A stretch of 41,462 nucleotides of DNA from Pseudomonadota bacterium (GTDB lineage: Bacteria; Pseudomonadota; Gammaproteobacteria; Xanthomonadales; Xanthomonadaceae). The position numbers were made by a program, and so were the translations under genes. Shown in pieces: positions 1,990 through 5,196 of this stretch (position 1 is the first letter of the stretch; each line of letters starts with the position of its first letter). The notes beneath the pieces are model-generated. The model was not told where the DNA came from and made no database searches. It saw only the letters and a list, made by a program, of their open reading frames with translations. Location: NCBI GenBank assembly GCA_029560515.1, contig JAKQKT010000153.1:1-41462 (forward strand). The letters are read 5' to 3'.

Positions 1990-2097
1990 GCGTTCTAATC
2001 CAGGCAGAAAATAAATAGTCGCGACAGCTGAAACCTGCCGCAACAATCGTTAAACTATTCCCATACTTCCCGCCCCCCACAACCTAGAGATACTGCC

Positions 2098-2493
2098 ATG
2101 AGCGAAATTCCAGGCGATTTGAAATTCCTTAAATCCCACGAGTGGGCCCGCGTAGAAGACAACGGCAAAGTCACCGTCGGAATTTCCGATCACGCTCAAG
2201 GCCTGCTGGGTGACTTGGTCTATGTCGAACTCCCCAGCGTTGGCGATACCGTTACGATGGGCAATGCATCTGCGGTTGTCGAGTCGGTAAAAGCGGCGTC
2301 GGATGTGTATAGCCCGGTGACTGGAACGGTTGTTGCCGTCAATGAAGCCTTGTCCGACAAGCCGGAAACGATCAACGAAGACGCTTACGGTGAAGGTTGG
2401 ATTTTCGTCGTGGAGCCAAGCGAGCTCGAAGAGTTGAACGAATTGCTGTCGCCCGACGACTATGCCGAATTGCTGGAAGACGACGACCACTAA
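2098..2493 (+). CDS. gcvH: Glycine cleavage system H protein
   Basis: GcvH is the lipoyl carrier that shuttles the aminomethyl intermediate between GcvP and GcvT and is reoxidised by dihydrolipoamide dehydrogenase. The product has 131 residues, the usual length. [10 protein letters not shown] near the N-terminus, the domain core [20 protein letters not shown], and the lipoylation site ESVKAASD with Lys65 as acceptor are all visible. The C-terminus is acidic (LLEDDDH). It lies 108 bases behind gcvT and is followed by a strong intrinsic terminator at 2524-2551. gcvP, the decarboxylase, is not in the window. Confidence 0.97.
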
Positions 2494-2523
2494 TCCGTCA
2501 GCAACACGGAATGCGATGAAACG

Positions 2524-2551
2524 ACCGGCCGCCAAGCGGCCGGTTTTTTTT
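2524..2551 (+). terminator. Intrinsic terminator of gcvT-gcvH
   Basis: An 8-bp GC stem (CCGGCCGC at 2525-2532, GCGGCCGG at 2536-2543) with a three-base loop is followed directly by eight T residues (2544-2551). It lies 31 bases after the gcvH stop codon, exactly where a Rho-independent terminator is expected. Confidence 0.93.
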
Positions 2552-3073
2552 CTACTCGGGAAAATACACCCGCTTAGCTTGGCTGCAGCAATGAGCCGAC
2601 AGCCTAGCCTAAGATGTTGAGGTGATGAAAATGGATGCCGAATATCCATCGTCACCATGCAGGCGGATCGAAACAGGAGACTGAAATGCTTCTTCGCAGA
2701 TCCGGGTTTCAAGCTCCGAAAACAAGTTTTACGAGTTGGTTTTTATGTCAGTCGCCTTGCAACGGCATTTGCTTGGCATGAAAATTCGGCTGAAAAAGCT
2801 GCGCAGTTTTGCCATTTCGACTTGGAAAAATAAAAAAATCTTCGCTGTTCGATTTAACCTGGGTTCGGCATGTTTCTGCAAAACATTTTTATGCACGCGC
2901 AGCTCGGTTTTTGCATCGGAGAAAAACAGGTGGCGCTGAAAGCCGCGTAATTGCTGCGTTTTATTTTTCCGGTTGCGGAATTTGGCAAATTCGAATGTCG
3001 GCAAATCGTTTTCTGCACTAGCACAAAATCATTCCTGCGGGATGACGGTACGTGATTATTTTTATCAAAGGTG
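2552..3073. other. Gene-poor interval between gcvH and a candidate small RNA gene
   Basis: About 520 bases without a convincing gene and visibly more AT-rich than the surroundings. Two things stand out. A two-part stem-loop spans 2621-2656: GGTGA/TCACC outside and ATGGAT/ATCCAT inside. A 31-codon frame (ATG 2686 to TGA 2781) follows an AGGAG at 2675-2679, and its stop overlaps another ATG at 2779 that opens a 53-codon basic frame ending at 2939. Neither small frame resembles a family I know, and both could be chance. Confidence 0.4.
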
Positions 3074-3102
3074 TTGACAAGTGAAAAACACCTGATTAGC
3101 TT
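3074..3102 (+). promoter_or_regulatory. Sigma-70-type promoter ahead of a candidate small RNA
   Basis: A perfect -35 hexamer TTGACA occupies 3074-3079. With a 17-base spacer the -10 position is TAGCTT (3097-3102); a 16-base spacer gives TTAGCT. Transcription would start near A3109. The nearest downstream coding sequence is over 330 bases away and separated from it by an intrinsic terminator, which suggests a short non-coding transcript. Confidence 0.6.
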
Positions 3103-3108
3103 TCGCCC

Positions 3109-3291
3109 AACAAAGACTTTCTGCGGAAACGAGTGATAACAGTTCAGCCAACAAATCGCATTACCGATCGGGCCTTTGCCCGGGATGTCGATTCTCCGGT
3201 CGCTGGCTTCGTTTCCTCCAAAAAACAGATCGCATCCTGCAGGGTGCCGAACTTCCAATGCGCTCAAACCGGGTCCGGTTTGGGCGTTTTT
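3109..3291 (+). ncRNA. Candidate structured small RNA, about 180 nt
   Basis: The interval lies between a consensus -35 promoter (3074-3102) and a very strong intrinsic terminator (3261-3291), with no plausible coding frame inside. The predicted transcript folds: GGAAACGA (3125-3132) pairs with TCGTTTCC (3209-3216), enclosing ACCG/CGGT (3163-3166 with 3197-3200) and a CGGGC-CTTT-GCCCG hairpin (3169-3182). I could not match it to 6S RNA, tmRNA, RNase P RNA or another standard family by eye. It could be a trans-acting regulator or a terminated leader. Promoter, fold and terminator are seen; the function is unknown. Confidence 0.55.
3261..3291 (+). terminator. Strong intrinsic terminator of the candidate small RNA
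   Basis: A 12-bp stem with one G-T wobble pairs 3261-3272 with 3275-3286 and is followed by five T residues (3287-3291). No coding sequence ends just upstream of it, so it is best explained as the end of a non-coding transcript. Confidence 0.9.
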
Positions 3292-3350
3292 ATTGAACGA
3301 CATATTCGCAATGCGACCGCATTGCCATCCAATCTACTGCAGGGCTTCGG

Positions 3351-3387
3351 CACTGCGGCAGTTCACCGCGGAAATGTTTCCGCAGTG
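3351..3387 (+). promoter_or_regulatory. Two competing hairpins upstream of the histone-like gene
   Basis: CACTGCGG (3351-3358) can pair with CCGCAGTG (3380-3387). The inner palindrome GCGGAAATGTTTCCGC (3368-3383) uses part of the same downstream arm, so the two stems exclude each other. They lie 57 bases before the start codon at 3444 and could act in the mRNA leader or as an operator. The mutual exclusivity is seen; regulation is inferred. Confidence 0.35.
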
Positions 3388-3443
3388 GTGTACTAACTGG
3401 GCTTTACCTAAGCGTTATCTAGCCAACTGACGAGGAGTTGACC

Positions 3444-3767
3444 ATGGCAACTAAGAAAGCTGCAAAGAAGCCGGCCAAAAAGGCCGCAAAGAAAGCTGTA
3501 AAGAAAGCTAAACCGGCCGCTAAAAAAGCCGCTAAAAAACCAGCCGCCAAAAAAGCCGCTAAAAAAGTAGCTAAAAAAGCCGCTAAGAAACCAGCTGCCA
3601 AAAAAGCCGCCAAAAAAGTAGCTAAAAAACCAGCTGCCAAAAAAGCCGCTAAAAAAGTAGCTAAAAAACCAGCTGCCAAAAAACCAGCTGCAAAGAAAAA
3701 AGCTGCGAAGAAGCCTGCCAAGAAAAAGGCTGCTGCTCCAGCTGCACCTGCTGCACCTGCGATGTAA
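3444..3767 (+). CDS. Histone H1-like lysine/alanine-repeat protein
   Basis: The 107-residue product is almost wholly Lys, Ala, Pro and Val arranged as KAAKK, KPAAKKAAKK and KVAKK repeats, with a short neutral Ala/Pro end (APAAPAAPAM). Such tails occur in bacterial histone H1-like proteins and in the C-terminal part of Pseudomonas AlgP. They bind DNA non-specifically by charge and are thought to affect nucleoid compaction and transcription. No globular domain precedes the repeats. The start is the ATG at 3444, which has GAGGAG (3432-3437) six bases upstream; a TTG two codons earlier is less likely. The repetitive DNA makes length variation between strains plausible. The gene stands alone and is followed by hairpins at 3789-3821 and 3848-3873. 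Confidence 0.88.
   Translation: MATKKAAKKPAKKAAKKAVKKAKPAAKKAAKKPAAKKAAKKVAKKAAKKPAAKKAAKKVAKKPAAKKAAKKVAKKPAAKKPAAKKKAAKKPAKKKAAAPAAPAAPAM
3511..3700 (+). repeat. Tandem coding repeats of the KAAKK type
   Basis: Within the histone-like gene, near-identical blocks built from AAAAAAGCCGCT, AAAAAAGTAGCT and AAAAAACCAGCTGCC recur head to tail, always in whole codons. This arrangement can expand or contract by slippage or recombination without shifting the frame. Confidence 0.8.
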
Positions 3768-3788
3768 TTTCGCAAGCAACAGTCCTGA

Positions 3789-3821
3789 ATCTCTCCCTGT
3801 GTTGCCCAGTCGGGGAGAGAT
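3789..3821 (+). terminator. Hairpin after the histone-like gene
   Basis: ATCTCTCCC (3789-3797) pairs perfectly with GGGAGAGAT (3813-3821) across a 15-base loop. It starts 22 bases after the stop codon but has no T-tract, so it may stabilise the 3' end rather than terminate. A better terminator follows at 3848-3873. Confidence 0.5.
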
Positions 3822-3847
3822 CATTTCCAGGATTGCCTGCAGATTTC

Positions 3848-3873
3848 AAAAAAGCGCCGAAAGGCGCTTTTTT
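3848..3873. terminator. Bidirectional intrinsic terminator
   Basis: AAAAAAGCGCC (3848-3858) and GGCGCTTTTTT (3863-3873) form an 11-bp stem with a GAAA loop. The A and T tracts give terminator shape on both strands. It suits the convergent arrangement of the histone-like gene and the serine hydrolase gene (minus, ending at 3940). Confidence 0.88.
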
Positions 3874-3881
3874 ATTGGCTG

Positions 3882-3935
3882 GTAGGAGCGACGGCAGTCG
3901 CGACAGTGACAGATCGCGACTTCCGTCGCTCCTAC
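3882..3935. repeat. GTAG-type REP palindrome
   Basis: GTAGGAGCGACGG at 3882-3894 is matched by CCGTCGCTCCTAC at 3923-3935, and the inner arms AGTCGCGA and TCGCGACT extend the pairing. REP elements beginning with GTAG are known from Stenotrophomonas and relatives, where RAYT transposases are thought to mobilise them. It lies between convergent genes, a usual place for REPs. Confidence 0.8.
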
Positions 3936-3939
3936 AATT

Positions 3940-5196
3940 TCAATCCGCGCCAACCTCGTCGCTGACCGGACCCAAATCTTCGAGGCCGAGCCAGTTGCGT
4001 TTTGGCAGACCCAGCGCTTCATCGAAGAAGGTCGGCATCAGGCCGGATGGCATGGCCGATGCCGAATTCCATAGCACGACGATCCCGATATCCTGATCAG
4101 GCAAGAAAGCGATCAGGCCACGAAAGCCGCGCACGGCTCCACCATGGAAAATCATGGTGCGGCCACTGTAATTCATGACCCGCCAGCCCAGGCCGTAATA
4201 GGCATTGTTCAGACGTTCACTGCGCCAGCCCGAAGATCGGATTTCGCCGGGTGTTGCGACTTGCGGGGTGTGGATTTCATTGAGCACTTCTTTTGAGAGT
4301 ACGTCGGGACGATGCCCCAGCTGAGCCCGCAGCCATTGAGCCATATCCTGGATGCTGGCATTCACGCCCGCAGCAGGCGCCACCCGATAAAAATTCTCGT
4401 TGGGTGCGATAGGTAACCAGCCGCCCTTGCCACGGACATGGGGTTTTGCCCAGGAGGCACTCGACATCAAACCGTCGAGACCATAGCTGGCATTGCTCAT
4501 TCCCAGAGGGACAAAAATCCGCTTTTCGACCTGATGCGGATAGAAATCGCCCGTTGCCGCGAAGGTAAGATCGCCGATCAGGCTATAGGCAATATTCTGA
4601 TAACCGTAGCAGTCGCCGGGTGAGCAGGTCATTGGTGCGTCCGACAAGCGCTCGGCAATCAATGCATAGGGTTGGTCACCGGCCAGTGCGCCGTCATAAG
4701 TATGATCACGCAAACCGACACGGTGACTGAGTACGTCGCGTACGGTTACCGTGGTGCCACTGGCGAAATCCTTCAGTTTGAAAGCAGGCAGCTGATTGAT
4801 GATGGGCGAATCCCAGCTCATCGCCCCTTCTTCGACCAACTGTCCGCTCAGCGTGCTGGCAAAACCTTTCGACAAGGAAGCAAGGCGAAACACCGTGTAT
4901 GGCATGACCGGGCTGCCTTGCTGGCTGTCGGTAAGGCCGTAGCCTTTCATCGAGATTATCTGGCCGTCTTGAACGATCGCCATCGACAGACCCGGCAAAT
5001 TTTTTTCCGCCACCAGACGTTGTGCCAATGATTCGATATTACGAGCGTTGGCGCTTTGATCCGCCAATGCACCCGGTCGTTTCACGATCGGTTTTGTGGC
5101 GACTCCGCTGGGTGCATCAGCGAGGCGAGGTTGCCCGGGCACTAACAGGGCAAGGCCGAATACTGAAGCGAATAAGCTGATTTTCATGGCTTTCAT
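3940..5196 (-). CDS. Exported serine hydrolase of the class C beta-lactamase family
   Basis: The 418-residue protein starts with a basic-hydrophobic signal sequence (MKAMKISLFASVFGLALL) and is probably periplasmic. It has the catalytic SxxK tetrad Ser107-Leu-Ser-Lys110 (FRLASLSKGF), a YxN-type motif in CYGYQN, and HGG in FHGGAVRGF near the C-terminus in place of KTG. This is the pattern of the beta-lactamase/transpeptidase-like family (PF00144), which includes esterases, D-aminopeptidases and peptidoglycan-acting enzymes. Substrate cannot be told from sequence, and resistance should not be assumed. A second ATG three codons in is an alternative start; neither has a strong ribosome site. It is divergent from lemA. 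Confidence 0.88.
   Translation of the reverse strand: MKAMKISLFASVFGLALLVPGQPRLADAPSGVATKPIVKRPGALADQSANARNIESLAQRLVAEKNLPGLSMAIVQDGQIISMKGYGLTDSQQGSPVMPYTVFRLASLSKGFASTLSGQLVEEGAMSWDSPIINQLPAFKLKDFASGTTVTVRDVLSHRVGLRDHTYDGALAGDQPYALIAERLSDAPMTCSPGDCYGYQNIAYSLIGDLTFAATGDFYPHQVEKRIFVPLGMSNASYGLDGLMSSASWAKPHVRGKGGWLPIAPNENFYRVAPAAGVNASIQDMAQWLRAQLGHRPDVLSKEVLNEIHTPQVATPGEIRSSGWRSERLNNAYYGLGWRVMNYSGRTMIFHGGAVRGFRGLIAFLPDQDIGIVVLWNSASAMPSGLMPTFFDEALGLPKRNWLGLEDLGPVSDEVGAD

Follow-up and report, generated by a model that had tools for sequence, protein, structure and literature searches.

A conserved unit upstream of a histone-H1-like gene in Xanthomonadaceae is probably a translated attenuator leader

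Between gcvH and a Lys/Ala-rich open reading frame (ORF), the stretch of DNA analysed here (the window; 41,462 nt in full) carries a promoter-like block and a terminator-like hairpin, and the question is whether what lies between them is a gene for an RNA of its own or a part of the gene that follows. An earlier note on this DNA favored the former, namely an orphan small RNA gene that encloses no coding frame. Comparison of the locus with its relatives suggests that it is probably no orphan small RNA gene, but belongs to a histone-H1-like gene as a conserved attenuator leader that is probably translated.

Promoter block and downstream gene

The promoter block is located at 3074-3104 on the plus strand. 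The TTGACA that had been noted at 3074-3079 is present and is followed, after a 17-bp spacer, by the -10 hexamer TAGCTT at 3097-3102, a weak one with a 3/6 match to the consensus. A generic promoter scan of the plus strand from 2000 to 4500 listed no promoter, and the case for this one is made by conservation and not by such a scan. Its family form, TTGACA-N13-TGATTAG[GC]TTTC, was matched with up to two mismatches in 265 of the 297 family genomes (reversed control pattern: 3 genomes). Within the window's own genome, a draft assembly of 486 contigs, up to three mismatches gave a single, perfect match, against two matches for the reversed control. Concerning the 175 loci compared below, they were collected by promoter pattern or DNA similarity, so that promoter conservation among them is largely built in and 265/297 is the fair figure. 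At least 80 named loci were found, mostly in Xanthomonas, Stenotrophomonas, Lysobacter, Luteimonas, Pseudoxanthomonas and Arenimonas (among the matches listed). Additionally, two contigs labelled Bacillus subtilis SK7B5 and Rhizobium (L119 and L123) bear the Xanthomonadaceae promoter pattern and are probably contamination or mislabelled bins. RNA polymerase would initiate just 3' of 3102, with a start near 3109-3111 as judged from the -10.

The gene proposed to be regulated is located at 3444-3767 on the plus strand and encodes a 107-aa, Lys/Ala-rich protein (MATKKAAKKPAKKAAKK...). Its product has no NCBIfam or Pfam match, and therefore the label "histone-H1-like" rests on composition. It is preceded at 3428-3437 by a TGA and the Shine-Dalgarno motif CGAGGAG. 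The 175 distinct loci leave out duplicates over the first 200 nt; in 160 of them, 276-488 nt 3' of TTGACA, we recognised a Lys/Ala-rich histone-H1-like ORF. As for the 15 without a recognised start, seven had less than 260 nt of fetched DNA past the promoter, three (L095, L104, and L139) were cut before the histone-like start, two (L138 and L158) had a visible but cut start, two (L079 and L094) had a diverged N-terminus and one (L005) lay at a contig end. Promoter-like sequence 3' of the terminator scored a mean of 1.6, against 3.0 in shuffles (109 loci); a promoter-like match (6-8 of 12), which could serve the gene alone, was found there in 26/109 loci and none in the other 83, and the window has no such match between terminator and histone-like gene. 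Since the same gene lies downstream in 160/175 loci and promoter-like matches after the terminator fall below the shuffle level, the unit is nearly certainly the leader of that gene and not an orphan small RNA gene; the earlier label of orphan is wrong, given the ORF at 3444-3767 and its counterparts downstream of the unit in relatives.

On the other side of the unit, gcvH was found within the fetched DNA of 153/175 loci. In the window a separate terminator-like hairpin, with a long run of Ts, follows gcvH (2523-2545), and thus gcvH and the leader probably form separate transcription units. A serine hydrolase with a beta-lactamase fold (PF00144) is encoded on the minus strand at 3940-5196, convergent with the histone-like gene, and a homologue was present in the fetched DNA of 119/175 loci. 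Two palindromes with 22-nt arms, 95% complementary, are located at 3882-3935 and 752-809 (the GTAGGAGCGACGGCAGTCGCGA type and a related one); we take them to be REP-like.

The earlier note could assign the unit to no standard RNA family, and this is borne out: at the gathering score, neither the window nor 38 related loci (20 + 18) had an Rfam match. A permissive Rfam scan of 2480-3450 gave five sub-threshold matches, none of them within 3074-3291, and a plasmid collection gave no match. For placing the known sRNA-Xoo6 of X. oryzae, we relied on an assumed genome size and origin position of PXO99. It is unlikely to be the same RNA, as the locus lies ~1.6 Mb from dnaA in three genomes inferred to be Xanthomonas, and sRNA-Xoo6 near the end of the PXO99 map, according to the accessible text of PMC3039613. 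Xanthomonas sRNA-Xoo1 to Xoo8 (PMC3039613, accessible part) and the sX RNAs resemble the unit in similar length, intergenic or leader origin and bacterial family. Nevertheless, in the main text of PMC3039613 the terms "gcvH" and "glycine cleavage" are absent and "histone" appears once, in the reference list, and the accessible parts of PMC3039613, PMC3771888, and PMC5559785 name no RNA of this locus. Among the best matches listed in the open-access literature, no leader ORF or attenuator was described for this gene; a 2012 transcriptome of X. campestris pv. vesicatoria may already show the transcript.

Extent and product of the leader ORF

Contrary to the earlier statement that the unit holds no coding frame, an ORF of 87 codons on the plus strand (3133-3396; GTG at 3133-3135, TAA at 3394-3396) covers most of it and crosses the terminator. 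By eye, no strong Shine-Dalgarno motif precedes the GTG. Of 171 loci, 164 have a GTG or ATG at +55 to +62, compared to 0-26 of 168 for seven control windows; the other seven of the 171 have neither codon at this position. The frame that is thereby set is free of stops over 34 codons in all 115 distinct sequences of constant spacing, compared to a stop in 111 and 19 of them for the other two frames, the 111 being largely owed to a TGA that overlaps the GTG. Measured against the expectation for independent columns, the GTG frame has 0 stops for 26.5 expected, and the others have 47 for 82.7 and 17 for 40.3; stops are thus below expectation in all three frames, and part of the deficit is therefore compositional. 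Only two of the 155 loci with GTG have a stop within 35 codons, namely L113 (codon 7) and L032 (codon 18).

The place where the frame ends is conserved as well. The leader ORF ends at most 70 nt before the ATG of the histone-like gene in 146/153 loci (five end earlier and two past the ATG), compared to 32 and 52 loci for the other frames. Loci fetched later agree, with such an end in 21/21 and, for the other frames, in 8 and 5; of 40 hand-picked loci in this set, 17 duplicates were dropped, and the 23 new sequences came mostly from genera already sampled. These frame counts omit the loci without GTG or ATG, seven of the 160 and two of the 23. In 53 strongly thinned representatives, four of them without the start, the stop is so placed in 47/49 (other frames 10 and 12); Fisher values for stop placement are nominal, given that the thinned loci are still related. 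The median length of the ORF among thinned loci is 93 codons. The phase between the leader start and the histone-like ATG is variable (33, 27, and 16 of 76), and consequently one inherited frame does not explain the placement of the stop. The gap between stop and ATG is most often 14 nt (37 loci), and for some stops it is 40-60 nt. In 154/160 loci a TGA or TAA lies directly 5' of the Shine-Dalgarno motif, and in 95/153 the triplet at this place shares the frame of the leader start; the TGA of the window does not, and the leader ORF there ends earlier, at TAA 3394. Immediately 3' of that stop lies the motif CTGGGC (3397-3402, plus strand), with a per-base conservation above 85% in an alignment of 127 loci, and 35/147 leader ORFs stop at it. 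Between the leader ORF and the Shine-Dalgarno motif CTGGGC is strongly conserved, and it reads CCGGGC in another family.

The frame also holds across the terminator, which it crosses in 121/122 loci with both start and terminator, and it is open over codons 35-75 in 30/32 loci without a passing terminator (other frames 17 and 19). Taken together, the pattern of sequence evolution makes it likely that the leader is translated.

The product is a different matter. The dN/dS of the leader ORF is 1.03 in the GTG frame and 0.94 and 0.90 in the other frames (73 tree-linked pairs from 149 ORFs of at least 60 codons, picked by leader similarity and each read to the first stop only), and 69 of 91 leader indels are not multiples of three. 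By the same method gcvH, used as a control, gave 0.12 over 56 of those pairs, and 6/6 of its indels were multiples of three. For the first 68 nt, permutations gave a synonymous fraction of 0.218 and the observed one is 0.206, with no excess at third positions. On all these figures a conserved small protein was rejected. After the result for the first 68 nt a purely non-coding leader was our early reading, which the openness of the frame and the placement of the stop overturned. Of the conserved coding frame that the earlier note had held out as counter-evidence, the start, the openness and the stop position were therefore found, and the conserved amino acid sequence was not. Selection seems to act on translation and not on what is made. 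The possibility that the ORF encodes a genuine but fast-evolving small protein is very slight: start and open frame are conserved and the products are rich in Ala, Arg, Ser, and Thr, but dN/dS, third positions and indels speak against it, and the product of the window was matched neither by Pfam at E 1 nor by NCBIfam.

Outside Xanthomonadaceae, promoter and histone-like gene are shared by two other families of the order, with five loci in all; one of these families is represented by a single genome and, in the other, 4/10 genomes were matched by a slightly relaxed pattern. Outside the family, an order-wide scan gave about as many matches as the reversed control, and of ten such loci that were read, two had a histone-like gene downstream. 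All five other-family loci have, in place of the GTG of Xanthomonadaceae, an ATG at +58 or +59, followed by frames of 49 to 64 codons, four of which end within ~70 nt of the histone-like gene and one (L217) ~140 nt before it. No terminator was seen in them by eye. Because these loci have the ORF and no visible terminator, the translated leader seems older than the attenuator.

The terminator and the structure of the leader

The terminator-like hairpin, proposed here as the attenuator, is located inside the leader ORF at 3260-3291 on the plus strand, with a stem of 12 pairs (3260-3287), a 4-nt loop and the T run TTTTT at 3287-3291. The 12-bp stem with five Ts that had been described at 3261-3291 is thus confirmed. 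A terminator-like hairpin was found in the promoter-to-gene interval of 127/160 loci, against 9-28 in five shuffles. Of the 127, 109 lie at +160 to +240, and they comprise 102 distinct stem-loops; the search takes the best hairpin, so that pairing in the located hairpins is partly by construction. The other 33 of the 160 loci did not reach the terminator thresholds; several of them keep a hairpin without a T run, and three (L014, L039, and L157) look like near misses. In L050, L078, L114, and others, a second conserved hairpin 3' of the terminator, CGCGGGTCCGACTCCCGCG, resembles by eye a tRNA T-arm. The window itself, as read directly, has palindromic hairpins at 3308-3325 and 3368-3383 in the post-terminator leader (3308-3383, plus strand), which is still within the leader ORF, and such palindromes are, by eye, present in relatives too.

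Between promoter and terminator, a conserved core (3105-3225, plus strand) is seen in the alignments, with the family motifs GAGTGAG, a CTCCRCC...GGTGGA hairpin and a pyrimidine tract near TTTCC. The arms of this hairpin are degenerate in the window, as read directly, and the core shows modest covariation in an alignment of 105 loci (of 119 thinned loci, divergent ones removed by hand). The fold of the unit is moderately stable (z = -2.08; 7/200 shuffles at least as stable). The earlier note had also proposed a long-range pairing between 3125-3132 (GGAAACGA) and 3209-3216 (TCGTTTCC), both on the plus strand. The two arms are complementary, and their 8-bp pairing is part of the minimum-energy fold, but covariation does not support it: in 51 distinct box pairs, the window not among them, a mean of 5.51 of 8 positions pair, against 5.44 when reshuffled, and 8% of shuffles are at least as good. 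It was dropped as a conserved structure. A pairing of a 5' GCCCAG with CTGGGC was likewise dropped, having no covariation by eye. For the 5' arm of the terminator, a simple ungapped scan against mononucleotide shuffles found no antiterminator pairing (mean z -0.16 over 109 loci).

These structural data bear on the reading in which RNA structure and not translation sets the terminator, as in a riboswitch-like attenuator, with the open frame incidental. The conserved sequence motifs, the core hairpin and the lack of selection on the peptide are in its favor. However, the start codon, the openness of the frame and the place of the stop are kept while the phase drifts, the scan gave no antiterminator pairing and the covariation of the core is modest, and we regard this reading as improbable.

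Proposed mechanism and competing explanations

In the reading that we prefer, at a probability of roughly 0.6, the unit serves the histone-H1-like gene at 3444-3767 as a translated 5' leader, in which ribosomes would override a built-in terminator. Sequence evolution supports the status as a leader, the start codon, the open frame, the stop position, the terminator and the neutrality of the peptide; from these we infer the attenuation itself, the coupling to the downstream start and the fate of the short RNA. Ribosomes would initiate at GTG 3133, ~22 nt past the transcription start, and read the leader ORF through the intrinsic terminator. With the first ribosome abreast of RNA polymerase, the terminator hairpin would be blocked and the polymerase would continue into the histone-like gene, and a ribosome that had traversed the leader ORF would finish near the histone-like start codon. 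When translation lags, transcription would stop at ~3291 and leave a short RNA without a stop codon, the ribosomes on which would be a substrate for tmRNA. The synthesis of a DNA-packing protein would in this way track ribosome traffic. Several observations weigh against this reading, namely the seven loci without GTG or ATG, the early stops of L113 and L032, the frame being open where no terminator passed, the promoter-like matches in 26/109 loci, the lack of a strong Shine-Dalgarno motif before the GTG, the negative scan for antiterminator pairing and the compositional part of the stop deficit.

By analogy with known systems, such a coupled-attenuation mechanism is plausible. The trp, his, and phe leaders encode peptide runs of the regulated amino acid and form alternative hairpins; they share with the present leader translation and a terminator, while the peptide here is unconstrained and no alternative pairing appeared in the simple scan. 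A programmed stop-less mRNA is known from arfA, and ArfA is a conserved rescue factor; here too termination within an ORF would leave the mRNA lacking a stop codon, but, unlike in arfA, the leader peptide is not conserved. In the E. coli pyrBI leader, pyrL has 44 codons, the sequence of the leader peptide is not essential and polymerase pausing is UTP-dependent; we know of no UTP sensing for the histone-like leader. According to the accessible text of PMC5021804, pyrBI has a leader peptide ORF and an intrinsic terminator before the regulated genes, as here, and termination is prevented when the ribosome is tightly coupled to the polymerase. The present ORF likewise spans the terminator (121/122 loci) and has an unconstrained peptide (dN/dS 1.03). 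Still, pyrBI controls pyrimidine synthesis and the present locus a Lys/Ala-rich histone-like gene, so it is not a member of that system, and its leader ORF differs in being longer, in ending just before the gene and in being kept where no terminator was found. Concerning terminators in general, the accessible part of PMC4824070 describes that ribosomes suppress those close to translated ORFs, and less so those inside, that functional terminators inside ORFs would yield non-stop RNA, and that one terminator, within an ORF's first 100 bp, evaded the ribosome, a further point against our reading. In comparison to that 100-bp zone, the terminator of the unit lies ~127 nt into the leader ORF.

The most serious competitor, which we nonetheless consider unlikely, holds that the leader ORF exists only for translational coupling or protection from Rho, and that the terminator is a secondary addition of one family with little regulatory weight. 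It is consistent with the frame being open where no terminator passed, with the five other-family loci that have the ORF and, by eye, no terminator, and with the commonest stop-to-ATG gap of 14 nt. Furthermore, with the upstream leader removed, the predicted opening of the Shine-Dalgarno motif has a median of 0.56 instead of 0.43 (a gain above 0.2 in 28/73). Against it, terminator-like hairpins in 127/160 loci, 109 of them at one place and as 102 distinct stem-loops, suggest that the terminator itself is kept, and stops that lie 40-60 nt before the ATG are far for reinitiation. Part of this competitor is nevertheless absorbed by our reading: the ORF is open even without a passing terminator (30/32), and therefore suppression of the terminator cannot be its only or original role; ribosome delivery or Rho protection is probably an added, older one.

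Finally, an independent, trans-acting small RNA gene was rejected as the main reading and has a very small chance of being correct: the conserved promoter block, the ~180 nt, the terminator and the promoter-like matches that could serve the gene alone in 26/109 loci would suit it, but the unit precedes the same gene in its relatives, those matches stay below the shuffle level with none in the window, the leader and the gene remain in the 33/160 loci without a passing terminator, and the open frame is kept. Of the small RNA reading as first put forward, the part that survives is a conserved promoter-leader-terminator module, with its own promoter and terminator backed by sequence and conservation, which could give an RNA of ~180 nt; its independence does not, the module being the leader of a neighbor found downstream in nearly all relatives and containing a conserved open frame. 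Such an RNA, ending at the terminator, may arise as a by-product of the leader.

At about even odds, a broader view can be put forward on the grounds of these comparisons, in which a long leader ORF is selected only for being translated. Its frame and its peptide would drift, and its start, its freedom from stops and the position of its stop would be kept in at least three bacterial families. This would make the synthesis of a histone-H1-like nucleoid protein depend on ribosome traffic, and in Xanthomonadaceae short RNAs without stop codons would be produced when translation lags. The pattern of an ORF selected for its extent, and for neither its frame nor its product, suggests a way to test for translated leaders that are overlooked by searches for coding sequence or RNA families: here dN/dS reads as non-coding and Rfam matches nothing, but translation is indicated by where the stops lie. 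If the translated attenuator leader is true, the level of a bacterial histone-H1-like protein would be set by how well ribosomes keep pace with transcription, and protein synthesis would thereby be linked to the packing of the chromosome.
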